Position numbers and translations under genes: made by a program. A model generated the notes under the pieces. The model did not search any database. It saw nothing but the letters and a program-made list of their open reading frames with translations, and was not told the origin of the DNA. From positions 1-47,625 of IMG/VR virus record IMGVR_UViG_3300017917_001715: a stretch of DNA of 47,625 bases; one strand, 5' to 3'. Below are positions 11,536 through 47,124 of this stretch, one piece after another. The stretch is from a virus. The number at the start of each line of letters is the position of its first letter. The stretch's first letter is position 1.

Positions 11536-11715
11536 TTATTCCTCCTTATTTCTTATTGGACTGGTTATAACCCAAATTGCAGTAGTTATCATAATTCCAT
11601 AACCCACTACAGTTTTAGCACTTCCGTCCAAAACTACCCAAGCGATAAACATACCGAGAAGGGTCCATGCTTGGTCAATCATATCTTTAATGATGTTCTT
11701 TATTATTCTTACCAT
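11536..11715 (-). CDS. Small two-helix membrane protein, holin-like (59 aa)
   Basis: Basic N-terminus, then two predicted transmembrane helices (WTLLGMFIAWVVL and GYGIMITTAIWVIT) separated by a short DGSAK turn, then a charged tail. Size and topology fit class II holins. The start overlaps the stop of the large PA14 protein by 7 nt. Confidence 0.6.
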   Translation of the reverse strand: MVRIIKNIIKDMIDQAWTLLGMFIAWVVLDGSAKTVVGYGIMITTAIWVITSPIRNKEE

Positions 11716-19653: not shown

Positions 19654-19973
19654 TGATTAGCAATTTTAAGTAGGATTAAATAACCAATTAAATCATCAAT
19701 GTCATTATCTCCAGCAAACCCTTGGGCATGATTAATTCTATTTAGCTTGTCATCAATACGCACCTTCAATTGCTCTACTGAATCAGACGAAGCAAACAGC
19801 CTCATTGGATTTAATGCTGAATCTCCATATGAAATATTCTTTTTAATTAGCATTTCTGCTATTTCAAGGCATTGACCTAGTATCTTATTACCTGATGGTG
19901 CATCTGTGGCTACTAATTGTAGATCTGTAATCCATTGCTGATATCCTTTATTTTTTTCTGGGAACCCCGCCAT
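19647..19973 (-). CDS. Nmad1/DUF1599-like nucleotide-modification-associated protein (108 aa)
   Basis: Contains AEMLIKKNISYGDSALNPMR, KVRIDDKLNRI and DDLIGYLILLKIA, matching the pattern of the DUF1599/Nmad1 group (YG...R..DKL.R...DL.GYl). That group is linked to modified-nucleotide metabolism in phages, but the exact reaction is not known. The start at 19973 overlaps the epimerase stop (TAATG) and is preferred over the upstream ATG at 19994. Confidence 0.65.
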   Translation of the reverse strand: MAGFPEKNKGYQQWITDLQLVATDAPSGNKILGQCLEIAEMLIKKNISYGDSALNPMRLFASSDSVEQLKVRIDDKLNRINHAQGFAGDNDIDDLIGYLILLKIANQS

Positions 19974-20977
19974 TATATTAATTTCTCCGTCCATGTTTTA
20001 GGTGTAGCATTTGTAATAAATTCTATAGGAAGATGATAATTAAAATCTCTCACTCCCTTAATTTTAATATATTCTATAAGTTCTGACAAGCCCTCTTCTA
20101 AAGAAACTTTTGTTTTATAATTTAAAATCTCTCTTGCTTTATTTGCAGAACAGTTAGCATGGAATACCTCTTGTGGTCTTCCAGGCATATATATCGGATC
20201 TAACTTAAAGTCTAAAAGCTTTGCAATTGTTTTTGCCAGCTCATTAATTGTAATAAACTCTTCATCTGGACCAATATTAATTATCATGCCATTTGCAACA
20301 TCTGTTTCGCATGCAACCATAAGCGGATCGATGACGTCTTGCATGAAAGAAAAACATCGCTTTTGCTCGCCATTACCATAGATAATAGGTTGCTGGCCCT
20401 TTAGCATTCTATTAATCATAATTGATGCTACATTTCTAAAAGGATCATCATATTTTTGTCTTGGGCCAATGATATTGTGTGGAACCAAAATCACGTAATC
20501 CATCCCATGAGTCTCGCATAAATTTTTAATAAGCATTTCTGCAGCATATTTAGCAATTCCATAAGGATCTTGAGGCCTAGGAATCATAGACTCTACAAAT
20601 GGGGTTATATCTTGAGATCCGTATCTTGCCATAGAAGACATATGAACAAATTTTTTAACACCATGCTTAATTGATGCACTAACTGCAACTGTAGTTATAT
20701 GAGATGTATTTTTTGTAACAAGTGCTGGGCTAAATACTGAGAGGCCTTCATAGGCTGTGCATGCTGTATGTACAACAAGATCGACCTCAGAAAAGTGCTG
20801 CTCTACATCATCAAAGTTAGAAAGATCCTTTTGGTAGAATTCAACACCAGAAGGTACATTTTCTACATAGCCACCTATAAGATTATCAATGCCTAATACA
20901 TGATGACCCCTTTTTAAAAATTCATCTGCTAAATGACTTCCCATAAATCCAGCAACGCCTGTTACTAATACTTTCAT
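19973..20977 (-). CDS. NAD-dependent sugar epimerase/dehydratase (extended SDR)
   Basis: 334 residues. The Rossmann motif VTGVAGFMGSHLADEF (GxxGxxG) is at residues 5-20, MSSMARYG supplies the catalytic Ser, and YGIAKYAAEM the Tyr-x3-Lys pair. The closest classes are UDP-glucose 4-epimerase and dTDP-glucose 4,6-dehydratase types acting on nucleotide sugars; the substrate cannot be read from sequence. It sits with two glycosyltransferases and a methyltransferase and likely supplies their donor sugar. Confidence 0.88.
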   Translation of the reverse strand: MKVLVTGVAGFMGSHLADEFLKRGHHVLGIDNLIGGYVENVPSGVEFYQKDLSNFDDVEQHFSEVDLVVHTACTAYEGLSVFSPALVTKNTSHITTVAVSASIKHGVKKFVHMSSMARYGSQDITPFVESMIPRPQDPYGIAKYAAEMLIKNLCETHGMDYVILVPHNIIGPRQKYDDPFRNVASIMINRMLKGQQPIIYGNGEQKRCFSFMQDVIDPLMVACETDVANGMIINIGPDEEFITINELAKTIAKLLDFKLDPIYMPGRPQEVFHANCSANKAREILNYKTKVSLEEGLSELIEYIKIKGVRDFNYHLPIEFITNATPKTWTEKLI

Positions 20978-21537
20978 GCCACTCTCCTTATAGACAGAGT
21001 TATATTATCTCTGCCGTTTGTTTCTACAAAATTATTCATATTGTCTAGCTTATAGGTGTAACTATCTGATAGACTGTTAGCTATCTGAAGCCATTCTTCT
21101 TCAAACTCTTCTCTAATATCTTCAATGACATACCAACCATTTAATTCCAGCATAGGAAGGAGTTCATAAAATGTGTTCTTAGTTTCTTGTAAATAATGAG
21201 AACCATCATCAACAATAAAATCAAACTTTGTTCCACGCATCACAGACTTAAAATCTGTAAATGTCTGTATGATAGACTGATCTACATACATAGAGTGTAT
21301 TCTATTTTCTGTAAAAAATCTCTCTATATTATTTTCTAACCCTATAATATTAGCATTTGGGAATAGCTCTTTCCATGCTCTTAGCGATGCTCCAAAATGT
21401 ATTCCTATTTCAAGTACATTTTTTACTAAGCTTCTATCGTCAAATAAGGTCCCGTAAATATTTTCATATGTATGATATCCAGTCTTATCAGAATTATACT
21501 TTTCAAATATTTTTTTAAATAGTTCTACTTCAGCCAT
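20974..21537 (-). CDS. Class I SAM-dependent methyltransferase (187 aa)
   Basis: KNVLEIGIHFGASLRAW is motif I, ANIIGLENN the post-II acidic position, and FDFIVDDGSHYLQET motif IV, the arrangement of Methyltransf_24-type sugar or small-molecule methyltransferases (compare the DDGSH motif of macrocin or cephalosporin-hydroxylase relatives). Likely methylates a sugar made by its operon neighbours. ATGA overlap with the epimerase gene. Confidence 0.8.
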   Translation of the reverse strand: MAEVELFKKIFEKYNSDKTGYHTYENIYGTLFDDRSLVKNVLEIGIHFGASLRAWKELFPNANIIGLENNIERFFTENRIHSMYVDQSIIQTFTDFKSVMRGTKFDFIVDDGSHYLQETKNTFYELLPMLELNGWYVIEDIREEFEEEWLQIANSLSDSYTYKLDNMNNFVETNGRDNITLSIRRVA

Positions 21538-22178
21538 TCATTTTCCCTTCTTCTTTCAAGATTCCATCCAAGTACAGTATAATCTCCAGTAGACTTTTTA
21601 TTCCTGTAATAGTCACCGTTTCTTTGTGAAGTACTCATATTTCTTATTGCAAAATTATTATCGCTTTTAATTGTTTGTGAAGCCCCATTATCATCTACCT
21701 GTATTCCTGGACATAATATTTTTTCGCTAAAGCCAGCTAAAACCATTCTATCATCAAAATCGTTATCTTCATAGTATGATGGATAAATATATTCATCAAA
21801 CAGACCTATCTTTTTAACAATATTTTCTCCTAATGAAAAGCAACTGTAGTGTGCATTACTTTTAATGAAGTAATCTGGTCCGCTAAATTCCTCAAACTTA
21901 TGAAGTTCGTTAGGTCTAAAAGATGTATCTGCAGATCCAAATAGCCAATATGGTGAATGCGGGTAACATTTAATTCCTAAATTCCATGATCCAGCTATGC
22001 CTTGATTTGACGGCATGCTTAATATATGAATGTTAAGTCTATTATCTTTAGCCTTCCATCCAGAATTAGCATTATCTATAATCAAAATATTATCTATAGG
22101 ATGATCTATAGAGTCTAAAGTCTGTTCTAATAGATCAAATCTATTAAGAACTGGTATTATCATTACTGGAATACTCAT
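21525..22178 (-). CDS. GT2-family glycosyltransferase (217 aa)
   Basis: PVLNRFDLLEQTLDSID opens a GT-A fold, with DNILIIDNAN, MPSNQGIAGSWNLGI and a DTSFRPNE site at the usual DxD position, and a YYEDNDFDDRM element as the catalytic-acid region. Transfers a sugar from a nucleotide donor; the acceptor is unknown. Overlaps its neighbours at both ends. Confidence 0.85.
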   Translation of the reverse strand: MSIPVMIIPVLNRFDLLEQTLDSIDHPIDNILIIDNANSGWKAKDNRLNIHILSMPSNQGIAGSWNLGIKCYPHSPYWLFGSADTSFRPNELHKFEEFSGPDYFIKSNAHYSCFSLGENIVKKIGLFDEYIYPSYYEDNDFDDRMVLAGFSEKILCPGIQVDDNGASQTIKSDNNFAIRNMSTSQRNGDYYRNKKSTGDYTVLGWNLERRRENEWLK

Positions 22179-22321
22179 CTTTTTTTAATTAATCCAAACT
22201 GCTCTAAGTATCTCTGTATAGTCATAGCAGACACTCCACACTCTTTACCGATCTCTGTAACTGTCTTTCTTTGAACCACATATCTTCTATGTAGCCACTC
22301 CTTGCTTTGATATAATTTCAC
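22175..22321 (-). CDS. Orphan helix-turn-helix protein, GTG start (48 aa)
   Basis: EWLHRRYVVQRKTVTEIGKE followed by CGVSAMTIQRYLEQFGL is a clear HTH. The same domain is often found fused to HNH homing endonucleases in phages; here it stands alone. GTG overlaps the upstream stop (GTGA), and ATGA couples it to the GT2 gene. It may be a remnant of a homing endonuclease or a small regulator. Confidence 0.7.
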   Translation of the reverse strand: MKLYQSKEWLHRRYVVQRKTVTEIGKECGVSAMTIQRYLEQFGLIKKR

Positions 22322-23013
22322 TGTTGTTCCTTTGGAGATATAGTTCTATCTTCAGCTTGAATTGTTGAATATAATGCATTTAAAGCGCATCCTTTTCTAG
22401 CTGTTGGTGATATTGTGTATGAATTAAATTTTTCTTTATTATGAAAGATATACCAGTCTATTGGCCCTATGATTCCATTATTTTTTATATCTTTAATCAT
22501 TTTTTTAGCTCCAGATTTTGTTAATAACCAACATAAGGTTGACCAGTTCTGATAAGTTGGTACAACTTCTTGATCACCATAGGTTTTGTCAAAATTAAAA
22601 TACTGGTTTTCATGAACATAATAGCTAAATATATCCCAATCTTCTGGAAGTAAATTAATATATTCATATAGTAATAGATCAAAGTTGTTAAATATTTCAA
22701 TGTCATCTTCCATCAAAACTAATACTTCATAATCTGATTCTAAAAAATTGTTTATTGCAACCAAGCTGCTAGCCCAAAGACCTATCTCTCCAGGCTTATA
22801 TAGATATTTTACCCTTGATTTTAAATCTAAAACATTTTCACAAAAATTTTGATAATCTTCTTGATTTTTAATATGAATAGATTCTGTATAAAGCCTATCA
22901 ATTTTACCATCTAGAAAAGAAATTACCTTATTATAAATTTCTTTTCTTTCAGTACTGGATTCACCTAATCCATCAATATGGAAAATGTTATAACACACTT
23001 TATGCTTATTCAT
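22318..23013 (-). CDS. GT25-type glycosyltransferase (231 aa)
   Basis: YKPGEIGLWASSLVAINNFL followed by EVLVLMEDDIEIFNNF matches the GT25 core (GE.G...S......LvlEDD), with WSTLCWLLTKSGAKKM later as the family's C-terminal strand-helix. GT25 includes LPS galactosyltransferases and the collagen hydroxylysine galactosyltransferases. Acceptor unknown. It lies in a cassette with GT2, methyltransferase and epimerase genes. Confidence 0.75.
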   Translation of the reverse strand: MNKHKVCYNIFHIDGLGESSTERKEIYNKVISFLDGKIDRLYTESIHIKNQEDYQNFCENVLDLKSRVKYLYKPGEIGLWASSLVAINNFLESDYEVLVLMEDDIEIFNNFDLLLYEYINLLPEDWDIFSYYVHENQYFNFDKTYGDQEVVPTYQNWSTLCWLLTKSGAKKMIKDIKNNGIIGPIDWYIFHNKEKFNSYTISPTARKGCALNALYSTIQAEDRTISPKEQQ

Positions 23014-36220: not shown

Positions 36221-36636
36221 TATAGACTTTCTCCTTCTTCATGCATGTTGACTTCTTCTTGTCCTACCTCTAATACCAAAGATCTATTCAATCCGTATTT
36301 TTCAAATACATCTGGACTGGTAATATGTCTTTTTTTATTTTGAGATACTAGATATATTTTACCATCTGAAATGTTTTTAATCAAGGTTCCATCTCTAAAT
36401 CCAAGCTTTCCGACCACCTTGAATCCAACAACAGCACTCTCTGTAGCAAGCACTGTTGGGAAGTTCCAGCTTTCTGCTGCTCTATCAGAGATAAGCCTAT
36501 ATCTTTTACCATCTTTAATCCAATACGTGGACTTCTCTGTTTTAACAGCTAGCCCTGATGGGAAATTAGTTGGCTGAGAGATTATCGAGACTTCTGGAGT
36601 ACTCTTGAATATCTTTTTCACGCTGGCTCTTTTCAT
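36220..36636 (-). CDS. Small tail-associated protein with paired beta motifs (138 aa)
   Basis: Two related blocks: STYWIKDGKRYRLISDRAAESW and GKIYLVSQNKKRHITSPDVFEK, each a 'Y.I/V..gKR..I....' beta hairpin plus helix, a repeat I recall from phage tail or surface proteins. It overlaps the upstream coiled-coil gene by 71 nt from the first ATG; a later GTG at 36621 is possible. Confidence 0.5.
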   Translation of the reverse strand: MKRASVKKIFKSTPEVSIISQPTNFPSGLAVKTEKSTYWIKDGKRYRLISDRAAESWNFPTVLATESAVVGFKVVGKLGFRDGTLIKNISDGKIYLVSQNKKRHITSPDVFEKYGLNRSLVLEVGQEEVNMHEEGESL

Positions 36637-36748
36637 TAATTAATTCTGTAATTTCTGCTCTTAGTATGGCAATTTTTGTTTCATAGTCGGACGCTAACTC
36701 TCCGATTCTTTCCTGTAATGCGGCAATTATTAACTGATTCTTATCCAA
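36566..36748 (-). CDS. Coiled-coil small protein (60 aa)
   Basis: Heptad pattern through almost the whole length (ELASDYETKIAILRAEITEL). Probably oligomeric. Follows a similar 70-aa coiled-coil gene by 2 bp; perhaps a chaperone or spacer for the tail. Function unknown. Confidence 0.65.
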   Translation of the reverse strand: MDKNQLIIAALQERIGELASDYETKIAILRAEITELINEKSQREKDIQEYSRSLDNLSAN

Positions 36749-36750
36749 AA

Positions 36751-36963
36751 CTACTCTCCCTGAAGACTGGATAGCTCTGCTTCAAGAAGTGTTTTTTGTG
36801 CAGCAAAGTCGGTGAGCTGTGACTGTAAGGAGTTTAGCAGCGACTGGCTTGGAGAAGCCTTTGCATTTTCCTCAATAACTGTAAGCTCTAAGTTATATGT
36901 ATTTAGATCAACATTATGAATGTGTTGATTTACTATGTTAATCTTGTCATCGTTTGTTATCAT
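36751..36963 (-). CDS. Coiled-coil small protein (70 aa)
   Basis: Amphipathic helices ending LEAELSSLQGE; no Cys, no catalytic motif. AGGAGG precedes the ATG, and an extended -10 lies just upstream, making it the first gene of a four-gene tail operon. Confidence 0.65.
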   Translation of the reverse strand: MITNDDKINIVNQHIHNVDLNTYNLELTVIEENAKASPSQSLLNSLQSQLTDFAAQKTLLEAELSSLQGE

Positions 36964-36991: not shown

Positions 36992-38002
36992 CTAGTCCAA
37001 AAGTACAGGGGGTACATTTTTTAAGGCCACGCCAGCTTGGTATATATCTAGCTTGTCGTAATCTGGATTAATAACAGTCCATTTTTTATTTAAACCGCTA
37101 ACTTCACAAAACCTCAGAACCTGGTCTTTTGAGATATTTCCGTATATCCCATCAAGCTCTCCAGACAATAGTCTATTTAATCTTATCATAGATCGAGAAG
37201 ACTGTTTCCAAAACTCATCTTTATTCTTGTCTGCCCAGGGTCTATGTGTTACATGTCTTGGTTCGTCTTCTCCTGGATACTTCTTTACTGTAAGATGATA
37301 ATAAATTATCTTTGGAGTTGCCCAAAATCTCCATCCTCTGCACCATGATTGTACAGTAAGATAAATCTCTTCTCCGTGATAGCTCATATCTGGATCGAAA
37401 GGAACTTCATGCAGGTAAGACTTATGTGTAAATATATAACTGCCTTGCCAATATACTGCAGGCTCTAGTAAATTATCATGAAACCAATCTATATTAGGGA
37501 AGCCGTATCCAGGAGTATAATCATCGTTAATATGTCTGTGATAAGAGTTAATTGTTCTACCACTTGGAACATCATCAATCATTATTCGACCATCATCAGC
37601 AATGGCATACTCTGGACCAGAAACGGTTAATATCACTTTACTGTGTCCAGCCATCTCTTCTGCTTTCTGAAATTCTGATATTGATATTTCATCCCAGTCC
37701 TTTACAAATATATTGTGTCCGCAGGTTTGAAAAAAGTAATCATAATCAACATCTACGCTAGCAGTTTTCCACCTAGACCACATGACTCCACGATATTCGC
37801 TTAAATCTAATTTAAAATAAAACAACTGATTATCTGGAATAAAGCTAAGGTCTGGATGCAGATCGTCTCTTGATTGTTCTGAAACTATTGAGAATATAAT
37901 GTTCTCTTTATGCTTTGCATTATCCCATAGACTTTTAACTGCACCAAGAAGATCCTTCTCACGGTATGCTAGCATAGAAACCAATATCTTTTTATCACTC
38001 AT
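36992..38002 (-). CDS. GT60-family polypeptide N-acetylglucosaminyltransferase-like enzyme (336 aa)
   Basis: The start at 38002 overlaps the methyltransferase stop. The sequence follows the GlcNAc (GT60) family plan: KKILVSMLAYREKDLLGAV with AKHKENI (opening fold), EYRGVMWSRWKTA, YDYFFQTCGHNIFVKDWDE at the metal/donor site, VYWQGSYIFTHKSY, VPFDPDMSYHGEEIYLTVQS and YYHLTVKK. GT60 includes Dictyostelium Gnt1, which adds GlcNAc to a hydroxyproline of Skp1 made by a prolyl 4-hydroxylase. Here it shares an operon with three 2OG-Fe(II) oxygenases, two of them P4H-like, a few kb from a PPV-repeat tail protein. Target protein modification is inferred. Confidence 0.78.
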   Translation of the reverse strand: MSDKKILVSMLAYREKDLLGAVKSLWDNAKHKENIIFSIVSEQSRDDLHPDLSFIPDNQLFYFKLDLSEYRGVMWSRWKTASVDVDYDYFFQTCGHNIFVKDWDEISISEFQKAEEMAGHSKVILTVSGPEYAIADDGRIMIDDVPSGRTINSYHRHINDDYTPGYGFPNIDWFHDNLLEPAVYWQGSYIFTHKSYLHEVPFDPDMSYHGEEIYLTVQSWCRGWRFWATPKIIYYHLTVKKYPGEDEPRHVTHRPWADKNKDEFWKQSSRSMIRLNRLLSGELDGIYGNISKDQVLRFCEVSGLNKKWTVINPDYDKLDIYQAGVALKNVPPVLLD

Positions 38003-38606
38003 TATTTGTCCTCCATAGGCATAAAACCTTATCTGAATACTCTGGATAAATGCCCTCAAACTCATTGAATGACTCTATTGGGCTATTTAAATTATATGGG
38101 TCACACATCAAATTAATTAGATGAGCCTCACCTATATTTATATCTGTATTGACTTGTTCCCTTGTAAAAAAGTTTATTGCAAAAAACTTAGATCCAGAAT
38201 TAACTATGTTTTTTATTATTTTTTTATTCTCTTCTATTGAATAATGCAAAAGTACATCTCTGCACAAAATTAGATCGGCAGCTGGCAATTGATCAATAGT
38301 TATATCGGACACCATAAAATTAATGCTATCTGAAGAATACTTTTGTATATTGCTATCTATTAGATCATCAACTATGTCTAATCCAAGATATGAGACTCCA
38401 GATAGATTGACTTCCTTCATCCAGTTAAAGTCTCCGCATCCGATATCGATAATGCTAGATATGCTGTATTTATCAATTATTAAATTTAATGCATCTATAA
38501 CATTTGCAGACGAATATATGCTTGATCCCATACCAGATACAGATTCATCGTTTCCCCATAGATTGTTAGCGTATATTCCTGTAAATACTTCTTTATGTGT
38601 CTGCAT
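37995..38606 (-). CDS. SAM-dependent methyltransferase (203 aa)
   Basis: Motif I SSIIDIGCGDFNWMKEV, motif II acid in YLGLDIVDD, INFMVSDITID (motif III) and ADLILCRDVLLHYS (motif IV), a class I fold. The CxDVLxH pattern resembles small-molecule or sugar methyltransferases. In this operon it may methylate the glycan added by GT60. Confidence 0.82.
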   Translation of the reverse strand: MQTHKEVFTGIYANNLWGNDESVSGMGSSIYSSANVIDALNLIIDKYSISSIIDIGCGDFNWMKEVNLSGVSYLGLDIVDDLIDSNIQKYSSDSINFMVSDITIDQLPAADLILCRDVLLHYSIEENKKIIKNIVNSGSKFFAINFFTREQVNTDINIGEAHLINLMCDPYNLNSPIESFNEFEGIYPEYSDKVLCLWRTNNE

Positions 38607-39384
38607 CTAGCGAGCCCGCCCTAACTTTCTTTTGATGATCTGGATACTTAGAAGAGTCAGCATGAAGTCCGTGATAATATTTTCTACCAGATTCATGGGG
38701 CTTCTTCATGTCTTCACCAAGCCTTTGCTGGTTAAATAAATGAATCTCGTTTCTTTCTTTTTCTAAAGTATCATTACTAAAAACATCTGAAGCATTAACT
38801 AAATCAAACTTATCTATATAATATCTTTGAATTGGCATAAAAGCAGATATAATGTCTCCTTTTTTAATAAACACCTCTCTATTAGGCTCAGTAATCTTTA
38901 GGTTAAATGTAAAATCTCTTCTAAGGTTATCAGTTTCAATAACTCCAGTCATTGAAGATATTCCAGGAATAAAATGATTTGGTGGAGGAAAAACCATTAT
39001 GTTAACACCTGGCTCTGTTCTAAACATAAAGTTATTTTGAAATGTTAATATTCCAGATCCAAATTGAGAAGCTATTAGCTGCTGCTCTGTACCATTATCT
39101 TCTACTTCAAATATTGTGTCATCTGCATTTTGTCCGCCATTCCATATGGCCCTGATGTTATACATAGACTTTATTCCAAAGCCATATTGGTTCCCTATGC
39201 CTATTGGAAGACAGTAGTAAAAGTGTGATGTAAACCAATCTCTTTTTGGGTTTGATCTAAAATCAACAATAATGTTTTCATAGTCGCCATTCTTTGGATA
39301 AGACCAATGGTGTGGCATTATGACTATTTTATTTTCAGGAACATAATTGCCTTCTGAGTTTATAAAATTAGTACTCGTTATCAT
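38593..39384 (-). CDS. DUF6065 protein (263 aa)
   Basis: Matches the DUF6065 layout as I recall it: SHFYYCLPIGIGNQYGFGI, then AIWNGGQ, ASQFGSGILTFQ, MFRTEPGVNIMVFPPPNHFIPG, GVIETDNLRRDFTFNLKIT, FIKKGDIISAFMPIQR. The double-stranded-helix look suggests a cupin-like fold. Found in aquatic phages and bacteria near 2OG oxygenases; function unknown. Start at 39384 preferred over the ORF's first codon at 39414. Confidence 0.7.
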   Translation of the reverse strand: MITSTNFINSEGNYVPENKIVIMPHHWSYPKNGDYENIIVDFRSNPKRDWFTSHFYYCLPIGIGNQYGFGIKSMYNIRAIWNGGQNADDTIFEVEDNGTEQQLIASQFGSGILTFQNNFMFRTEPGVNIMVFPPPNHFIPGISSMTGVIETDNLRRDFTFNLKITEPNREVFIKKGDIISAFMPIQRYYIDKFDLVNASDVFSNDTLEKERNEIHLFNQQRLGEDMKKPHESGRKYYHGLHADSSKYPDHQKKVRAGSLDADT

Positions 39385-39934
39385 AAGCCTTATCAGTTCC
39401 CCAAAATCCAGCAATAGTATATCTAGTTCCGCCAGATACTTTATTTACAGAATGAAGATGATTGGCATCTCCTAGATGAACTGCAAGCTTACCAGCTTTT
39501 GGAGATACAGATATGTTGTGATTTGGATAGCATGTCTCTCCACCTTCAAAATTGTCATTTAAATAAATAATAGATGCATGAGATCTGTGAGTAAAGAAAT
39601 TATGTCCGTACATTACATTTTCCATATCGTCTTGGTGAGCTGGCTGGAATTGCCCATCAAACCATCTGACAACATGAAATGTGTCTGCGTAGATATTTTC
39701 TAGACTATATTCTTTCATAAAGAACGATTTTGTGCGCTTTAGTATATCTGACATAACAATTTTAAATTGATTATCGCTAGGCAAAAATTCTGGGTAGAAT
39801 ACTCTTCCATCCCAAAATTCATCGTCTGACTGACTCCATGCATTTGAATCAATTGCATAATTAATGATGTAGTCACACTCTTCTTGTGTTAAAAAGTTTT
39901 CTAGTTCTCTACCGTTAAATGTATTAGCTGACAT
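39368..39934 (-). CDS. 2OG-Fe(II) dioxygenase, prolyl-4-hydroxylase-like (188 aa)
   Basis: Iron site PAHQDD (H-x-D), distal His in ANHLHSV, and 2-oxoglutarate Arg in GGTRYTIAGFW, with the P4H-typical IIYLNDNFEGGET between them. Such enzymes hydroxylate proline or similar residues using O2 and 2-oxoglutarate. Start at 39934 (MSANTFNG) chosen since the upstream ATG would overlap the previous gene by 32 nt. Confidence 0.85.
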   Translation of the reverse strand: MSANTFNGRELENFLTQEECDYIINYAIDSNAWSQSDDEFWDGRVFYPEFLPSDNQFKIVMSDILKRTKSFFMKEYSLENIYADTFHVVRWFDGQFQPAHQDDMENVMYGHNFFTHRSHASIIYLNDNFEGGETCYPNHNISVSPKAGKLAVHLGDANHLHSVNKVSGGTRYTIAGFWGTDKAYDNEY

Positions 39935-40532
39935 ATTCCAATGGCCTCGTTTCATATCTAAACCAATTTACAGCAGCATATCTTAAACCGCTTTTAACTG
40001 GAACAACTCTATGCATATATGTAAAGTCAGATCCAAATAATATTAGATCTCCCTTTTTTGGCTTATATGATATTTCAAAATGTTTATACTCTATCTCTCC
40101 GCCTTCATAGTCTTCATTAAAATAAATTGTTGCGGAAACATTTCTTGGATATCTTCTACCAGCATCAATATGCCAATCAAATTTATCACTTTCACCATAC
40201 TTCAATATAATCCACCCTTCGTTTATGAGTGGTTCTACAGAATAAGTTGATATAAAATCTTGAATACACTTATCTGATGCGTTTCGGATTTTTACTAATA
40301 GCTCTTTTTGTGGAGTATCTTTATCATTTAAAATATAATTATGTAGCATATATTCGCTACATCTTCTAGCCTCATTAACTGATTCTAAATCATTATTTGC
40401 AACATCAACAATCTTAGATGTATAAAATAAATCACCTATAGATTCTTCAATAAGGTCTACAAAAGATTCTCCTAGTTCTTCTGTAATATTATAAACAACA
40501 ATACCTGGAGCAATTATATTTTTATTAAGCAT
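39924..40532 (-). CDS. 2OG-Fe(II) dioxygenase, prolyl-4-hydroxylase-like (202 aa)
   Basis: FDWHIDAGRRYPRNVSATIY (H-x-D), YFNEDYEGGEIEY, TYMHRVVPV (distal His) and SGLRYAAVNWF (Arg), a complete P4Hc core at residues about 115-195. N-terminal 100 residues are helical. Second of three oxygenases in one operon; the two P4H-like copies differ enough to have different targets. Confidence 0.88.
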   Translation of the reverse strand: MLNKNIIAPGIVVYNITEELGESFVDLIEESIGDLFYTSKIVDVANNDLESVNEARRCSEYMLHNYILNDKDTPQKELLVKIRNASDKCIQDFISTYSVEPLINEGWIILKYGESDKFDWHIDAGRRYPRNVSATIYFNEDYEGGEIEYKHFEISYKPKKGDLILFGSDFTYMHRVVPVKSGLRYAAVNWFRYETRPLEYVS

Positions 40533-41085
40533 TTAATCCCATAGCTTTCTCTCTAGCTTTTTGTCTAACAACTTCTACATACTCTGGACCTTCTGTAAAA
40601 AACCAATGATCTGGATCTGCGTAATGAAAAAATATTACTCCGATTACATCAGAATTAAATTCTTTTGTTTCTCTCCAATGCTCTTGTTCTTCTCCACAAA
40701 ACAGTACGGCTTCATTTTCATCTAAAGAGTACTCAGTTCCTTCTACCCAAATAGACCATGGCTCTGTTTGATGCACAACAATATCTACAGTGTATTGACA
40801 GGCATTTAAATCTTTATGTTTATGCAGATCTATAGTCTGATGAGAATATTCAGCATACATAGAATAAGTATGAAGGATGCTATCATTTTCAAAATATGCT
40901 CTAACTAACGGCAATAATTTTTCACTATACTTAATTAAAACATTATCTTGCCCACTATGAATAAGCTTTCGCCCGTGGTCGTCATACCCAAGACTCTTAA
41001 CAACTTCATTGTTTAAAAAATATTCTTTTAGAAATCTAAAGTCTTCTTCGGTAAATACGTTTTTAACTACGCCTGATTTAATCAT
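40525..41085 (-). CDS. Putative 2OG-Fe(II)/cupin-type oxygenase (186 aa)
   Basis: IDLHKHKDLNACQYTVDIVV contains H-x-H-x-D, EEQEHWRETKEF supplies a distal His and an Arg, and YSLDENEAVLFCG is a cupin-like turn. This fits a 2OG oxygenase or cupin, but the pattern is less complete than in its two neighbours. First gene of the modification operon, with AAAGGAG and a divergent promoter. Confidence 0.65.
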   Translation of the reverse strand: MIKSGVVKNVFTEEDFRFLKEYFLNNEVVKSLGYDDHGRKLIHSGQDNVLIKYSEKLLPLVRAYFENDSILHTYSMYAEYSHQTIDLHKHKDLNACQYTVDIVVHQTEPWSIWVEGTEYSLDENEAVLFCGEEQEHWRETKEFNSDVIGVIFFHYADPDHWFFTEGPEYVEVVRQKAREKAMGLNA

Positions 41086-41111
41086 GCCTGCTCCTTTAAG
41101 CTAATATGTCA

Positions 41112-41140
41112 ATTATATCATAACGGACACATACATACAA
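41112..41140 (-). promoter_or_regulatory. Promoter of the modification operon
   Basis: -35-like TTGTAT (41135-41140), 17-bp spacer, extended -10 TGATATAAT (TATAAT at 41112-41117), leader of ~25 nt with AAAGGAG. It is divergent from, and intertwined with, the plus-strand promoter. Confidence 0.6.
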
Positions 41141-41149
41141 TGGTATAAT
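41141..41149 (+). promoter_or_regulatory. Leaderless plus-strand promoter of the sulfotransferase
   Basis: TGGTATAAT, 6 nt, GTG at 41156. Same geometry as the minus-strand leaderless promoters. Confidence 0.65.
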
Positions 41150-41155
41150 TTGATT

Positions 41156-41830
41156 GTGACTAAATTTAAAAAATTTTATTTTTTTCATATTGACAAAACT
41201 TTAGGCTCTATGGTTGCCCCTCATCTTCTAGATCCATTATATAATATAATGGAGGAAAATGGAATATCTGCTATAGAAAATAATGCCAGCCATGAGCTAC
41301 ATAACTTTTGGCAGGACTTCGACGAAGATACATACATATACTCATGCTTTAGAGACCCCTACTCAAGAATTATTTCGGAATATACATATAGCTCTAATTA
41401 CGATATAAATGGTTTTAGGAAAGATATAGGAAACTTAAGGGAGTGGCAATCTCCACATGTAAGCCTAGATGGATTTATATCATGGTACAAAGAATATGAT
41501 AACAATAACTATCAGGCCAAGGTACTGTCTGGTGGTGATCTTTCATCCGATGCTATGCGTAAAAATTTTAATAGAATAAACTTTAAGACCACCACAGATT
41601 TTATTAAAGGAAATGCAGAATATGTTAGGAGCAAAATACTTTCTGACCTTGGAATTACTCATAAATTTAACAGGTATAACCCAGATCATGAAATAAACTT
41701 TTATTCTGAGTTCAATGGGCCACTAATTGACTCTTTGAACAATAGGCAAGACATACAGAAAATGATTATAGAAAATAATTATTTAGATAAGACTCTATAC
41801 GATTCATGTGCTTTTAATAAAGAGTTATAA
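41156..41830 (+). CDS. Sulfotransferase-like protein (224 aa), the only complete plus-strand gene
   Basis: FYFFHIDKTLGSM is the 5'-phosphosulfate-binding loop type motif (HIxKTxGS), and CFRDPYSRIISEY is the 3'-phosphate-binding motif (RDPxxRxxSxY) of carbohydrate sulfotransferases, spaced about 65 residues apart. Such enzymes move sulfate from PAPS to sugars. The GTG start is set by an extended -10 box 6 nt upstream; a TTG at 41150 is less likely. Its 3' end overlaps the opposing GT61 gene by 52 bp. Possibly an independently acquired unit. Confidence 0.75.
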   Translation: MTKFKKFYFFHIDKTLGSMVAPHLLDPLYNIMEENGISAIENNASHELHNFWQDFDEDTYIYSCFRDPYSRIISEYTYSSNYDINGFRKDIGNLREWQSPHVSLDGFISWYKEYDNNNYQAKVLSGGDLSSDAMRKNFNRINFKTTTDFIKGNAEYVRSKILSDLGITHKFNRYNPDHEINFYSEFNGPLIDSLNNRQDIQKMIIENNYLDKTLYDSCAFNKEL

Positions 41831-42756
41831 ACGTCCTGATAATCTACTTTATCATACAACTCAATTATATTATATTTACAGTCAATAACCCTAGAGATAT
41901 CCTGATCGTAATCATGATGAAACCATTTATGAGTTTTTAATACATAAAACTCAGTACCATTATCTGAAAATATTCCATTCCATATACCCGCCCCAAGAAG
42001 CCCAGCTACAGATTTAGCATTATAAAAATATTTTATTTGGTCGCCTATAGACATTCCAGATAGATTAATAGAGGTATACCCTAGGCTATTATAAAAGTCT
42101 TCTATTGCGTCCTCTATATACTTTTCATTATATCTAGATATGTTGCCTTTATCATTACTTTTTTCTAATATCTCGCTTACTTCTCTTCTAGATATATATA
42201 TCTTTTCTGGCATTGATTCATCTTTGATTAAAAAACTAGAAAAAAAATCTCTAATCAAATCATTATTGTGATGTTTAAATTGATCAAATCTTGGGAACAA
42301 TGATGTTACCATTATAGTTGGATCATATCCAATAACAATTTCTTCAAACAGCATTGGAGAAAAAGTATTACCACTGTTTTCTAAAACTAATGCTGGAACA
42401 AACATTATATTATGTTCTTTTTGTGTTAGCATTTCTAGCGTTTGTTGTATTGGAAACTGTGCATTATGATATTCTGTCGGGTCCCATTTTAAATCAACCC
42501 ACAATGCTTTTACATTACTATCTATATATTTTTTATAATGTAAATAGGTTCCTAGGCCCTCTTTAATAAAATGAAAATAGTGTGGTCCTGGAACTATTGG
42601 CACATAAGATCCCTTTAGTATTCTTACACGCTCTATCTTATCTACTTTGCCATATAAAACATTTTTGAATTTATAAAATGTTATATCTCCGTCATCAAAT
42701 ACTTCCATGCTTTCAAATCTTGCCCCAAGATTTAATGGTTTTACTTCAATGTCCAT
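41779..42756 (-). CDS. GT61 (DUF563)-family glycosyltransferase (325 aa)
   Basis: GPHYFHFIKEGLGTYLHYKK (entry of the GT61 fold), EKIYISRREVSEIL (R-x3 motif), RYNEKYIEDAIEDFY, MSIGDQIKYFYNAKSVAGLLGAGIWNGIF and the C-terminal GTEFYVLK follow the DUF563 order, with G-A-G-x-x-N in place of HGAGLTN. GT61 includes plant xylosyl- and animal EOGT O-GlcNAc transferases. It begins 4 bp after the PPV-repeat tail protein stop, so the two are co-translated and the tail protein is a reasonable acceptor (inference). Confidence 0.8.
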   Translation of the reverse strand: MDIEVKPLNLGARFESMEVFDDGDITFYKFKNVLYGKVDKIERVRILKGSYVPIVPGPHYFHFIKEGLGTYLHYKKYIDSNVKALWVDLKWDPTEYHNAQFPIQQTLEMLTQKEHNIMFVPALVLENSGNTFSPMLFEEIVIGYDPTIMVTSLFPRFDQFKHHNNDLIRDFFSSFLIKDESMPEKIYISRREVSEILEKSNDKGNISRYNEKYIEDAIEDFYNSLGYTSINLSGMSIGDQIKYFYNAKSVAGLLGAGIWNGIFSDNGTEFYVLKTHKWFHHDYDQDISRVIDCKYNIIELYDKVDYQDVYNSLLKAHESYRVLSK

Positions 42757-42760
42757 AAAT

Positions 42761-44446
42761 TTACCTTACTGGTTTAGCTGGACCTGATGGGAAGACTGGT
42801 GGTGTAACAGGTGGGTTAACTGGCGGTACAACTGGAGGAGATACTGGTGTAGCAGGACCACCTGAAGGGAAGATTGGTGGAGTAACAGGAGGGCTAACAG
42901 GTGGTACAACTGGTGGTACAACTGGTGGTACAACTGGTGGTACAACTGGTGGTACAACTGGAGGTACAACTGGAGGAGATACTGGTGTAGCAGGACCACC
43001 TGAAGGGAAGATTGGTGGTGTAACAGGAGGGCTAACAGGTGGGCTAACTGGAGAAGGAAGATTAAGTGAAACCTGATTAGAGGTTGCATTAGCAAAATCA
43101 ATTGAGTTAGTTGCGGTTACACGACATCTTATATTATATAGCCAGTTTTCTGTTATAAATGGATATGGTGGCTGCCATGAGCTATTTATTGCTCCAGGAT
43201 AAGCAGTCCATCCAAAGGTATTTAAAAGATACTGCCACTGATAAGAGTATGTTACTGGAGCTTTAACATTTGCAGCCATTGTACCATTTGTTGTAGAAAA
43301 GGTAGTAGAGCCAAGTGTTCCTGAGGATGGGGTAACAACTGGATCTGTAGCAAATACTGGTCCAGTCTCCAATGCTGGGGTTTGAATTGTTCCAGTAACT
43401 GCATCACCATATCCATAAGAACTATTATATCCCCTAACTTGCCAAAAATAAGTTGTGTTAGAAGAAACTGCTCCTGCAGAAGATGTAAAAGATCCTCCGT
43501 TTGTAGTTATTGCTCCAGTTCCAATAACACCAAAATAACTATACGGAGACCAATCTACTCCAACTGAATCTGTATTTGCTCCAAATGTTACGTTATTGAA
43601 TGATATAGTATTGTATGTTGCTGTTACTGAACCTACTGATGGGAGTCCTGGTTTTAAAACCGCATTAGTTCTAACTTTATCTGAAGTAGTAGCATTACCA
43701 ATATATCCAGGATTTGCGTTTGTTCCAGTAATTGGAATTACCTTAAAGTAATAGTCAGTATCTGGATTTAAACCAGTCATCGTTGTTGATGTTTGAGAAA
43801 TTGTTTTAATTAGAGACCAGTCTGCCGATCCAGCTTTTTGATATACTCTATAGTTATTAGCATATAAAGAGCTATCCCAAGATAGGTCAACTGCTGATGT
43901 TGGAGAAGATGAATTTACAGAACCAGAAAGGGTAGATATATTTCTTGGTGTTTGAATTGAAGTTGTAGATGAAGTTGATGAATTTGATGCTAAATTATAT
44001 GTAGAAGTTACAATAAATCTATATAGGTTTTCTGCATTAGGTTTAATTTCGCTTCCAGTAACATATGTATCGCCATCTTGCTGAGCATCAATTAAAATTG
44101 TTTTTGTATTTGTTGCTCCTGATGCTGGATTTGTGATAGAAGTATCTACTAATGGTCTCCAAACAGAACCGTCATACCATTCAAAACGATAGGTTAAAGT
44201 ATCTGGTTCTGGCACCCAATGTTTATTTGTTCCAGTTAATGTTACAAGGTTAGTTGTGATGTTGGTCGATTGAGATATGGTAACTACACTTTCTGGCTCT
44301 GATACTACTCCAGATGAAAATATTGTTTTCCATGCCCCAGATACTTTTAGCTTAGCCTGACTTACTGTTTTCCATGCTCCATTAACCTTTAACTTAATAG
44401 ATGATACAGTTTTCCAAGAGTTTCCTGATTTTAATTTTATTGGCAT
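42761..44446 (-). CDS. Tail protein with FN3 domains and Pro-Pro-Val C-terminal repeats (561 aa)
   Basis: Residues 1-45 are three tandem copies of a KLK(S/V)xxxWKTV unit. About 50-150 form an Ig-like strand set, about 165-260 an FN3 domain (VDLSWDSSLYANNYRVYQKA, LNPDTDYYFKVIPI), about 265-355 another FN3-like domain, and about 360-465 a further beta domain. About 468-561 is Pro-rich: PPV/VVPP tandem units and two copies of PPIFPSGGPATPVSPPV. Such layout fits a tail tip or fibre adhesin. The Pro tail is a candidate substrate for the nearby P4H and GT60/GT61 enzymes. Confidence 0.8.
   Translation of the reverse strand: MPIKLKSGNSWKTVSSIKLKVNGAWKTVSQAKLKVSGAWKTIFSSGVVSEPESVVTISQSTNITTNLVTLTGTNKHWVPEPDTLTYRFEWYDGSVWRPLVDTSITNPASGATNTKTILIDAQQDGDTYVTGSEIKPNAENLYRFIVTSTYNLASNSSTSSTTSIQTPRNISTLSGSVNSSSPTSAVDLSWDSSLYANNYRVYQKAGSADWSLIKTISQTSTTMTGLNPDTDYYFKVIPITGTNANPGYIGNATTSDKVRTNAVLKPGLPSVGSVTATYNTISFNNVTFGANTDSVGVDWSPYSYFGVIGTGAITTNGGSFTSSAGAVSSNTTYFWQVRGYNSSYGYGDAVTGTIQTPALETGPVFATDPVVTPSSGTLGSTTFSTTNGTMAANVKAPVTYSYQWQYLLNTFGWTAYPGAINSSWQPPYPFITENWLYNIRCRVTATNSIDFANATSNQVSLNLPSPVSPPVSPPVTPPIFPSGGPATPVSPPVVPPVVPPVVPPVVPPVVPPVVPPVSPPVTPPIFPSGGPATPVSPPVVPPVNPPVTPPVFPSGPAKPVR
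42811..43050. repeat. Nested tandem repeat encoding the PPV/VVPP tail
   Basis: A 12-bp unit (GGTGGTACAACT on the plus strand) is repeated about six times near 42901-42970, flanked by two ~75-bp near-identical copies around 42840-42915 and 42975-43045 that both contain GCAGGACCACCTGAAGGGAA. Such arrays can change copy number by slippage or recombination. Confidence 0.85.
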
Positions 44447-44454
44447 ACAGAATC

Positions 44455-46155
44455 CTAAGAACTTGGATCATATATTAATAAGACATCACCATTTGTTGTC
44501 TTATCGGATAAATATATAGTGCTAGTATAATTTGCTTGAGCAATTGTATACATATTTCTTAATCCACCAGATGCTGTACTATAAGATCCAGCAACTTGTG
44601 CAGATCTTCCCACCTCAACCTGCCTTCCGCTAGAAGACTCTGAGCCCAAAATAAGTCTTCCATTAAACTCTGTATTAAATATATCTATAGAGTTTCCATT
44701 TATTGTTTCATAAAGCCAAAAGGATCCAGCCAAACCAGTCATTGTATAATTACCAAAATCAATAAAGCCAGAACCAACATCAAGTATTCCAAGATCACCT
44801 AGGTCTATTATGGAAGAGCTGCTAGTTGCAAATAATCCAAATTCTGAAATAAGCCAACCATCGGTAGAAGAGCCTATATATCCACCAGTTGCATTTATAT
44901 CGCCAGTAATTGTGAGGCCACCAGTTAATGGGGCTTCTAGAACTGGATTGCCATCTGATCCATAAATATGTAGTCCTGCTAAAACTAAGCCAACCTGTGA
45001 TGAAGATATCTCAACTCTTGCAGATCCAGCACTACCAGCTCTAATATACGAAGTAGAGCTAATATTTCCAGCTTCTAAATTATTAACCGATAATGTTCCT
45101 GCAGCTAACTTTGAAACATCAATTGATAGCGCTTGAATTTTTCCAGCAGTAATAGCATTAGTTGCAACTTTATCTGCAGTAATTGCATTTGCTGCAAGTT
45201 TTGCAGTTTCAATTGCACCGTCTGAAATCTTTGTAGCAGTAATAGCACCATTAATTAACTTTAACTCAGAAATTATATTATCTTCTAAATCATCTGCAAT
45301 AGCCGATCTTGCGCCAAGTAAATCACTTGCAACATTTTGCTGTAGCGTTCCAAATTCATTTAATTTATTAACGGCTCTGGCATGTATATATACTGGCTGA
45401 TTATATCTACAATAAGTTCCATCTACTGGTATTATTATTTTATTTACAACTTTATCTCCCGTTAAAACTCCAGCAGCTATATATGTTCCTTGCGTTGCAG
45501 TTGAAGAGTTTCCAACAAAAACTTCTATCGCACTAAAACCTTTAAAGGTTCCATTTGCATATGTTCCAGCCCACGCTAACTCTAATCCTCCAAGAACTCT
45601 TGTAACTGTAAATCCATTTGGATTCGTTGGGGCTTCAATGACTTCACCAGCCTGAGGATCGACGGTAATAGTTCTTTCGTCGGAAGGATCTGAATACGTT
45701 CCTAATACTGTTACAGCTTTTAATGTTACAGTATATTCTCCAGCTGGAGCTGTTATAGATTTTTTACCAGCAACTTTAAATGATGTTACTGGCTTTGTTC
45801 CATCGCCAAACGTATTATTCTCATCAGATATAAATACCTCTACTCTATCTATACCCTTATATGTTCCGCCATCTTTATCTAAGCCAGTCCATTGAACAAA
45901 TATTTTTTCTAAGTCTGAACTTAAATCAGTTTGAAGAAATCTTGGCGCTTTTGGCTGTGCTTCAGTAGAAGCAGTAACGACCTTTGTAATAGACCACTTA
46001 TCATCTGCAATAGATGCTCTATCTGTGTAAATCCATGCAAATTGAAATTTATACTCATCTCCTGGATTTAAATCAGTTACAGTTACAAGGAAGTAGTCGC
46101 TGTCTTTTGGATCTACTTCAGATGTATCTTTAAGGTCGTCTGGTTTATATACCAT
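44455..46155 (-). CDS. Tail fibre / host-specificity protein with FN3 and fibre repeats (566 aa)
   Basis: Residues about 1-90 end an FN3 unit, 92-170 a second FN3 (VQWTGLDKDGG, AGEYTVTLKAVTVLG), 175-275 a third (LAWAGTYANGTFKG). About 285-345 is the fibre-stalk repeat (ITATKISDGAIETAKLA, NAITADKVATNAITAGKI). About 350-566 is a beta-rich distal part with GGLTITGDINATGGYIG, as in gpJ/fibre tips. It likely contacts the host. 8 bp from the next gene. Confidence 0.82.
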   Translation of the reverse strand: MVYKPDDLKDTSEVDPKDSDYFLVTVTDLNPGDEYKFQFAWIYTDRASIADDKWSITKVVTASTEAQPKAPRFLQTDLSSDLEKIFVQWTGLDKDGGTYKGIDRVEVFISDENNTFGDGTKPVTSFKVAGKKSITAPAGEYTVTLKAVTVLGTYSDPSDERTITVDPQAGEVIEAPTNPNGFTVTRVLGGLELAWAGTYANGTFKGFSAIEVFVGNSSTATQGTYIAAGVLTGDKVVNKIIIPVDGTYCRYNQPVYIHARAVNKLNEFGTLQQNVASDLLGARSAIADDLEDNIISELKLINGAITATKISDGAIETAKLAANAITADKVATNAITAGKIQALSIDVSKLAAGTLSVNNLEAGNISSTSYIRAGSAGSARVEISSSQVGLVLAGLHIYGSDGNPVLEAPLTGGLTITGDINATGGYIGSSTDGWLISEFGLFATSSSSIIDLGDLGILDVGSGFIDFGNYTMTGLAGSFWLYETINGNSIDIFNTEFNGRLILGSESSSGRQVEVGRSAQVAGSYSTASGGLRNMYTIAQANYTSTIYLSDKTTNGDVLLIYDPSS

Positions 46156-47124
46156 TTAGAACCCCAGCGTTAACTTATATTCTATATCTATAGGTCTTCC
46201 AGCAATCTTATCTATTGCTGTTGATAAAATTGACCTGCTTATTAATCCAAATGTTGGATCAAATGTATCTTGATCATTTACTCTTAACCCGTCTAAATAA
46301 ATTCTTGATCCGCTAGATGCGCTTGTTCTTACAAGCTCTACACCAATATGGGATATATTATATGGATCTGGTGTGCCCGTCATATTTTCAAAAACATCTG
46401 CCATTGAAACATCTTTAATATAGTTTCCAGTAGATAGTGATGAAAGGCTAATTGAAGCAGTAAAATAATCTACAGCTGAACTATAAAAATTAATATTGAT
46501 TTCAGATGAGTTTGTGTCTGGTCTATTAAAAGCTAAGCTAATTGAGTCATTGGTACTGTATCCAGAGATGTCTAAGATTCCGACAGCGTTCTTATACTCT
46601 TTTGATGTAGAAGATGTATCTGCTGTGTCAAACTTTACATCCATCATAAAATCACCTATTCTTGGAGTAACATCTGGCAAGGATCTTAAAGGTGGATTTG
46701 CGCTATCTGAATCAACCCAATCTATAACATTTTCAAATGTGGACAAGAATCTGCTGTCGTATGAGTTTAAAGAAGTTCTAGTTCCAGGGTATAGGCCAAC
46801 CTCTTTTATAATTCCAGATATATCTTGTGGAATTGTGGTTTTATATATAACAGAATATGTATATTCACCGTTGCCATCTGGCTGAACATCAATGCTGCCA
46901 AGATTTACTGGTGCTCTGTAAAACTCAAAACCTAGTCTGCTATTGGTATCTGATGAAGCATAGTCTGTTCCATTTGCTATTCCGACTGCAATATCTTTAG
47001 CATTAAATTGAGCCATGCCAGCTATGTAAGATGTGATAAATCTTTTGCCAAACTTTGTAATCAAATTGCTTGACCTAGCAACTTCTTTTCCATCTACATA
47101 AAATATATATTCACCTTTTAGCAT
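46156..47124 (-). CDS. Baseplate or tail-tip protein (322 aa)
   Basis: The N-terminal part, GKRFITSYIAGMAQFNAKDIAVGIAN followed by E-F-Y-R, resembles the conserved head of phage tail-collar-like proteins (IAG...IAVG.G...L..E..R). A central jelly-roll-like segment (about 150-270) suggests carbohydrate binding. Stop abuts the next start. Confidence 0.7.
   Translation of the reverse strand: MLKGEYIFYVDGKEVARSSNLITKFGKRFITSYIAGMAQFNAKDIAVGIANGTDYASSDTNSRLGFEFYRAPVNLGSIDVQPDGNGEYTYSVIYKTTIPQDISGIIKEVGLYPGTRTSLNSYDSRFLSTFENVIDWVDSDSANPPLRSLPDVTPRIGDFMMDVKFDTADTSSTSKEYKNAVGILDISGYSTNDSISLAFNRPDTNSSEININFYSSAVDYFTASISLSSLSTGNYIKDVSMADVFENMTGTPDPYNISHIGVELVRTSASSGSRIYLDGLRVNDQDTFDPTFGLISRSILSTAIDKIAGRPIDIEYKLTLGF

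Follow-up and report, generated by a model that had tools for sequence, protein, structure and literature searches.

Here, we describe a segment (positions 36992-44446) of a linear, 47.6 kb IMG/VR virus record (IMGVR_UViG_3300017917_001715; the whole stretch of 47,625 nucleotides is referred to as the window) that probably encodes a tail-tip protein together with a dedicated modification cassette, in which hydroxylation by enzymes resembling prolyl 4-hydroxylases (P4H) would be followed by glycosylation of a proline-rich rod. The enzymes and the rod form one unit, as is evident from their association across phages, their exchange together on a constant tail backbone, their joint absence from a phage sharing the same backbone and the predicted P4H fold of one of the enzymes. 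The original prediction for this segment had proposed a hydroxyproline (Hyp) glycosylation system aimed at the tail protein, with P4H-like enzymes acting first and a GT60-type glycosyltransferase acting next on Hyp. The part joining enzymes and rod is supported, whereas the placement of GT60 on Hyp is not supported, as GT60 follows threonine and the enzyme of the window lacks the DxH motif.

The rod and its oxygenases

The tail protein, which is the proposed substrate (42761-44446, minus strand), has 561 residues and includes a fibronectin-III-like domain with a match slightly under the cut-off (fn3, E = 7e-5). Based on composition count, its final 97 residues (residues 465-561; 42764-43054, minus strand) make up a rod of PPV, VVPP, PPVS and PPVT repeats with 42 Pro, 25 Val, 9 Ser and 5 Thr (43% Pro, 26% Val, 14% Ser plus Thr), in agreement with the roughly 95 residues of C-terminal repeats noted originally. 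With its 17 PP pairs the rod stands out in the window, where no other open reading frame has more than six, and the protein has the repetitive Pro-rich rod that is a criterion of hydroxyproline-rich glycoproteins.

The cassette includes two P4H-like oxygenases of the family that depends on 2-oxoglutarate (2OG) and iron, namely 2OG-A (39924-40532, minus strand; PF13640, 2OG-FeII_Oxy_3, E = 1.3e-15) and 2OG-B (39368-39955, minus strand; PF13640, E = 2.6e-9). Both match the profile above its cut-off and carry the complete H-x-D...H...R site, as had been expected of them. Across 13 sequences of the 2OG-A family, the iron site (HxD...H) and the 2OG-binding arginine are invariant (H120, D122, H173 and R183). 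The AlphaFold model of 2OG-A (pLDDT 88.9) has a double-stranded beta-helix fold, and its nearest structure is the Chlamydomonas P4H with (Ser-Pro)5 (3gze; Z 19.8, rmsd 2.6, 178 aligned), with PHD2 structures tied within 1 Z. Foldseek ranked vCPH of the virus PBCV-1 first, a bacterial P4H was also structurally close, and among PDB entries the sequence profile of 2OG-A matched hydroxylases of the P4H and PKHD types. 2OG-A is P4H-like in active site and modelled fold, and its association with Pro-rich rods indirectly makes it a candidate peptidyl-proline hydroxylase. When some 85,000 genomes of bacteria and archaea were searched for 2OG-A, only five weak matches emerged, which revealed no system in a prophage or host.

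A third oxygenase-like gene, OXY3 (40525-41085, minus strand), has no Pfam match, and the earlier assignment is nevertheless borne out by an AlphaFold model (pLDDT 94) with a 2OG-oxygenase fold and by the motif H89-x-D91...H135, which is invariant within the family. In the IMG/VR loci L078 and L121, and in other phages, OXY3 is fused to 2OG-A-type domains. The gene for the DUF6065 protein (38593-39414, minus strand; PF19541, E = 6e-41) is a recurring partner of oxygenase arrays and is found in many cassettes; profile comparison revealed no relation to OXY3, no match was found among isolate phages, and the only match in the PDB was a weak one to Wsv112 (E = 0.0085). Compared with the sibling locus L001, dN/dS was 0.03-0.07 for the GT60-type, methyltransferase, DUF6065 and 2OG-B genes (0.06 over 138 codons for 2OG-B), showing that these genes are under purifying selection. 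Judged by their predicted sites and folds, the cassette enzymes look functional.

In loci found via 2OG-A similarity alone (L003, L004, L005 and L008), the surroundings of 2OG-A include a protein with (VVPP)n, (PPPVA)n, (PPPVT)n or (PPVT)n repeats, together with variable sets of 2OG-B, OXY3, DUF6065 and either GT60 or GT61. The association was also recovered in reverse, by choosing IMG/VR DNA able to encode PPVVPPVV independently of the enzymes: oxygenases were nearby in 22 of the 71 loci that read PPVV versus none of the 49 that do not (by cluster, 10/38 versus 0/35, p = 8e-4). In many loci the cassette lies directly downstream of the rod gene. L013, a close relative which has the same phage backbone as the window (DnaB 79% and phosphoesterase 86% identical), is without the rod and without the cassette enzymes, and a different tail protein with 4% Pro holds its slot. 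Arrays of approximately 6-9 2OG-oxygenase genes with DUF6065 were also observed near a Pro-rich rod gene (L155:3945-13420, L158, L170 and L160), where different oxygenases may read different repeat positions. Additionally, members of this 2OG-oxygenase family have phage proteins with collagen-like Gly-X-Y repeats close by (L144, L169, L193, L195 and L214).

Many phages share an arrangement in which a tail-fibre-like gene is followed by a slot protein starting with (V/M)SPLxRxPSGIG and continuing into a low-complexity rod and, mostly, a Cys-rich end. The matches to this fixed N-terminus of the tail-tip family in IMG/VR, listed in full, comprised 98 stretches with 81 distinct slot proteins, 56 of which had enough sequence downstream. 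Oxygenases accompanied 51 of the 53 Pro-rich rods (PPVV, PPVT, PPPVA, PPPIIAT, AP, VP and TP) and none of the three Thr-rich rods (TTTTAAP and TTTTTTPAP), beside which GT60 was present. Counted by cassette cluster, the figures were 24/25 versus 0/2 (p = 0.009), with clusters drawn from the first 2.2 kb downstream; an earlier 6-kb version had merged nearly all loci, probably via shared post-cassette genes. Proline is the residue common to the oxygenase-associated rods of this family, and rod and enzymes are exchanged together on one backbone. For L283 (681-2582) and L291 (666-1931), the C-terminus of the slot protein resembles, by eye, a Hint/intein-type domain, with a possible role in cleaving or cross-linking the tip.

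Scanning forward from 2OG-A with its profile also supports the association: of the 44 loci in which 3 kb or more of upstream sequence was available, 29 had P-rich rods, versus 4 of 55 controls. The control was picked by a different criterion, however, and the loci were counted without dereplication. Several points weigh against the rod being the substrate of these enzymes. In the forward scan, 12 of the 44 loci had no low-complexity rod. The number of Thr clusters on which the contrast between Pro and Thr depends is only two, and GT60 occurs without an oxygenase in one cluster of TP rods (L280, L307). Because the Thr-rich class is small, rod and cassette could have moved together by neighbourhood alone. 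Furthermore, fusions and gene order are no proof that modification falls on the rod and not on a different protein or on the Cys-rich knob, and the PF13640 fold is also used on non-prolyl substrates.

Glycosyltransferases and alternative explanations

The GT61-type gene (41779-42756, minus strand; PF04577, Glyco_transf_61, E = 5e-13, 49.9 bits versus a cut-off of 27) lies 4 bp past the tail gene, exactly as first noted, and such linkage of a glycosyltransferase gene to a virion protein gene is repeated in other phages. Relatives of GT61 are present in other rod cassettes; a single-sequence scan for them found none. Rods that are near Ser/Thr-free (L004, L003, L352 and L339) are still accompanied by GT61 or O-FucT-like genes, with some of these cassettes adding UDP-sugar dehydrogenase, carbamoyltransferase or sulfotransferase genes. 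Because Ser and Thr are nearly missing, Hyp is the only plausible acceptor in these rods if the sugars sit on the rod, and GT61 (elsewhere the O-FucT-like enzyme) is most likely a better candidate than GT60 for Hyp. The gene for a putative sulfotransferase (41150-41830, plus strand; PF03567, 20.3 bits versus a cut-off of 22; PHROG 3347, E = 1e-7) is convergent with GT61 and overlaps it, and the convergent pair recurs in at least six loci (L078, L089, L110, L223, L263 and L277). This conserved gene order lends some support to the proposal that the sulfotransferase finishes the glycan. Rod cassettes also encode a radical SAM/SPASM protein (L003:2091-2945) and a JmjC/cupin protein (L004:9453-10004), which suggest further rod modifications.

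Glycosylation of the rod itself would be unnecessary if hydroxylation alone mattered, for stiffness or assembly, with the glycosyltransferases acting elsewhere, such as on a different tail protein or on the Cys-rich knob. Several cassettes in which oxygenases are numerous but recognised glycosyltransferases few (L155, L158 and L170) are in line with this explanation, as are the collagen-like repeats beside oxygenases in L169 and L193. We nevertheless consider it unlikely, given that the type of glycosyltransferase varies with the rod (GT60 with Thr; GT61 and O-FucT-like enzymes with low Thr) and that the tail protein of the window, although it has a rod, lacks a Cys-rich knob.

The main rival places the target in the host, with the rod gene being a mere neighbour of enzymes that change host metabolism, serotype or the polysaccharide of the surface. 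A second sugar cluster does exist elsewhere in the window, and phage glycosyltransferases often target host lipopolysaccharide or DNA. Cyanophage 2OG oxygenases are, moreover, usually assigned to host metabolism (PMC9602691). A host target would leave it unexplained why, while the backbone stays constant, enzyme content shifts as the composition of the rod does, and why the cassette so often stands immediately after the rod gene, and we regard this explanation as improbable.

The PF11397/GT60-type glycosyltransferase (36992-38002, minus strand) was confirmed by the profile search that had been proposed for it (PF11397 'GlcNAc', E = 7.7e-20, 72.1 bits versus a cut-off of 21); by sequence, the GT60 profile reached no solved structure. 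When the phage GT60 sequences were aligned, the metal motif read CGH, not DxH, in the proteins of the window, L001 and L008 (the latter 50% identical to that of the window), and DSH or DAH in all remaining ones. Because the gene is conserved under purifying selection (dN/dS 0.033 versus L001), the CGH motif is not simple decay. Canonical catalysis cannot be assumed from such a motif, and we therefore class the protein as related to PF11397 and stop short of calling it a working GT60 enzyme.

The distribution of GT60 suggests a preference for Thr: it was present in all six clusters with a rod of at least 30% Thr versus 2 of 21 others (p = 9.5e-5), it also occurs beside Thr rods in phages without any oxygenase, and it is absent beside most Pro/Val rods. 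Relatives carrying the enzymes in the absence of a Pro-rich tail, which the original prediction had named as evidence against itself, were thus found for GT60 and largely not for the hydroxylases. Among annotated phage genomes, GT60 gave three distant matches only (Xanthomonas XacN1, Stenotrophomonas CM1 and RAS14), and the XacN1 region contained neither a rod nor an oxygenase array. A Skp1-like order, in which P4H makes Hyp and a GT60 enzyme adds alpha-GlcNAc to it, is prompted by the operon that the two share and by the Dictyostelium Skp1 pathway, which begins with a GT60-kind pp-alpha-GlcNAcT on Hyp (PMC8724618), but it has little probability in view of the Thr-bound distribution of GT60, its absence from most Pro/Val rods, the CGH motif and the use of Thr by the mucin alpha-GlcNAc-transferase of Trypanosoma cruzi (PMC3769586).

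Returning to hydroxylation followed by glycosylation of the rod, we infer the following steps. The tail protein would be made in the host cytoplasm, where 2OG-A and 2OG-B, probably aided by OXY3, would hydroxylate prolines of the PPV rod. GT61 would put the first sugar on Hyp, the GT60-type enzyme, if active, would more likely add N-acetylhexosamine to Thr or Ser of the rod, and the glycan would be finished by the sulfotransferase and perhaps also by the methyltransferase. The polyproline rod that results would be stiff, glycosylated and displayed on the virion tail surface, a phage counterpart to the extensins of plants or to mucins, and would probably tune receptor contact, solubility or shielding. 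In a broader version, to which we give even chances, exchangeable tail-tip rods are matched to co-inherited enzymes, with oxygenases for Pro, GT60 for Thr and GT61 or O-FucT-like enzymes for Hyp; the repeats concerned would be PPVV, PPVT, PPPVA, PIIAT, AP, VP, TP, TTTTAAP and perhaps Gly-X-Y.

Surrounding genes

The cassette is flanked by tail-fibre genes (44455-47124) on one side and by replication genes on the other. Two tail-fibre genes precede the tail protein, one with matches to tail-fibre PHROGs (44455-46155) and one with a Phage_tail_fib match (46156-47124). Next to the GT60-type gene, a methyltransferase dependent on S-adenosylmethionine is encoded (37995-38606, minus strand; Methyltransf_11 above cut-off; PHROG 3382, E = 1e-43). 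Downstream of the cassette there are two small coiled-coil-like genes (36566-36963), and in L005 and L013 relatives of one of them (36751-36963) likewise lie close to the slot region. The second sugar-related cluster, near the terminase (19973-23013), includes an NAD epimerase, a methyltransferase and GT2-type and GT25-type glycosyltransferases. Additionally, the gene at 11709-14375 encodes 888 aa that include a PA14 domain and a long stretch rich in Ala, Glu and Lys.

Comparison with known systems

No description of phage hydroxyproline, of a Pro-rich tail system or of a matched rod-enzyme cassette was found in the open-licence literature, consistent with the initial statement that no described phage pathway of this kind was known. 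If true, ours would be the first Hyp-linked glycosylation in a bacterial virus found in that search, and would provide a job for many of the 2OG oxygenases of aquatic phages, the functions of which are stated as not specifically investigated (PMC9602691). Matched rods and enzymes would represent a modular virus-borne hydroxyproline glycosylation code with no known precedent in bacteria or their viruses, which could account for phages with as many as 24 2OG oxygenases. The rods would add a new class to the surface structures of phages, with a possible part in controlling adsorption or shielding, and the cassettes would offer natural substrate-enzyme pairs for producing hydroxyproline glycoproteins in bacteria.

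The T4-like isolate cyanophage S-SCSM1 has 24 2OG oxygenases, and mass spectrometry of its virions has been published (PMC9602691). It encodes distant relatives of 2OG-A as well as an O-FucT-like enzyme and a carbamoyltransferase, which are likewise distantly related to those of rod cassettes, and an annotated virion protein (SSCSM1_19; MK867354.2 23462-31273, L388) with a 110-residue (xP)55 stretch (residues 1667-1776 of 2603) rich in RP, QP and NP. In S-SCSM1, however, the enzymes do not adjoin the rod gene, and the 2OG oxygenases were published as host-metabolism genes. Around the fused 2OG matches in S-T4, S-SCSM2R, S-H9-1 and ACG-2014f, no rod was found within 9 kb. The vCPH of PBCV-1 is likewise a virus-encoded P4H fold, but PBCV-1 is a eukaryotic algal virus rather than a tailed phage, and no rod-linked cassette is known from it. 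Mycobacteriophages are known to glycosylate their virions (Freeman et al. 2023, cited in PMC12619734) and resemble the window in directing phage glycosyltransferases to virion proteins, but their glycans are located at capsid and tail-tube C-termini, and the account of them in the passages concerned mentions no acceptor-making oxygenases (PMC12619734).

The Skp1 pathway of Dictyostelium and Toxoplasma similarly combines a cytoplasmic P4H with a GT60-type glycosyltransferase, but it acts on a single Pro of a regulatory protein, whereas the phage rods are long, GT60 tracks Thr and CGH replaces DxH in the window; the step order of Skp1 glycosylation is thus probably not common to the phage system. 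The mucin-type O-glycosylation by GT60 in Trypanosoma cruzi and Dictyostelium is comparable to the pairing of GT60 with Thr-rich, mucin-like rods in L237, L254 and L274, with the difference that the phage enzymes are virus-encoded and, in the window, joined with P4H-like oxygenases. Many uncultured aquatic phages, that of the window among them, have a tail-tip protein with a long Pro-rich rod beside an exchangeable set of P4H-like enzymes and glycosyltransferases, which suggests that bacterial viruses make plant-like hydroxyproline glycoproteins of their own. Plant and algal hydroxyproline-rich glycoproteins, such as extensins and those of the Chlamydomonas wall, share with the window the Pro-rich rods, a P4H-type enzyme and the combination of oxygenase and glycosyltransferases. 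Here, on the other hand, the protein belongs to a phage tail, the host is bacterial, no secretory pathway takes part, the glycosyltransferases are of other families, and the enzymes are encoded beside their proposed substrate.

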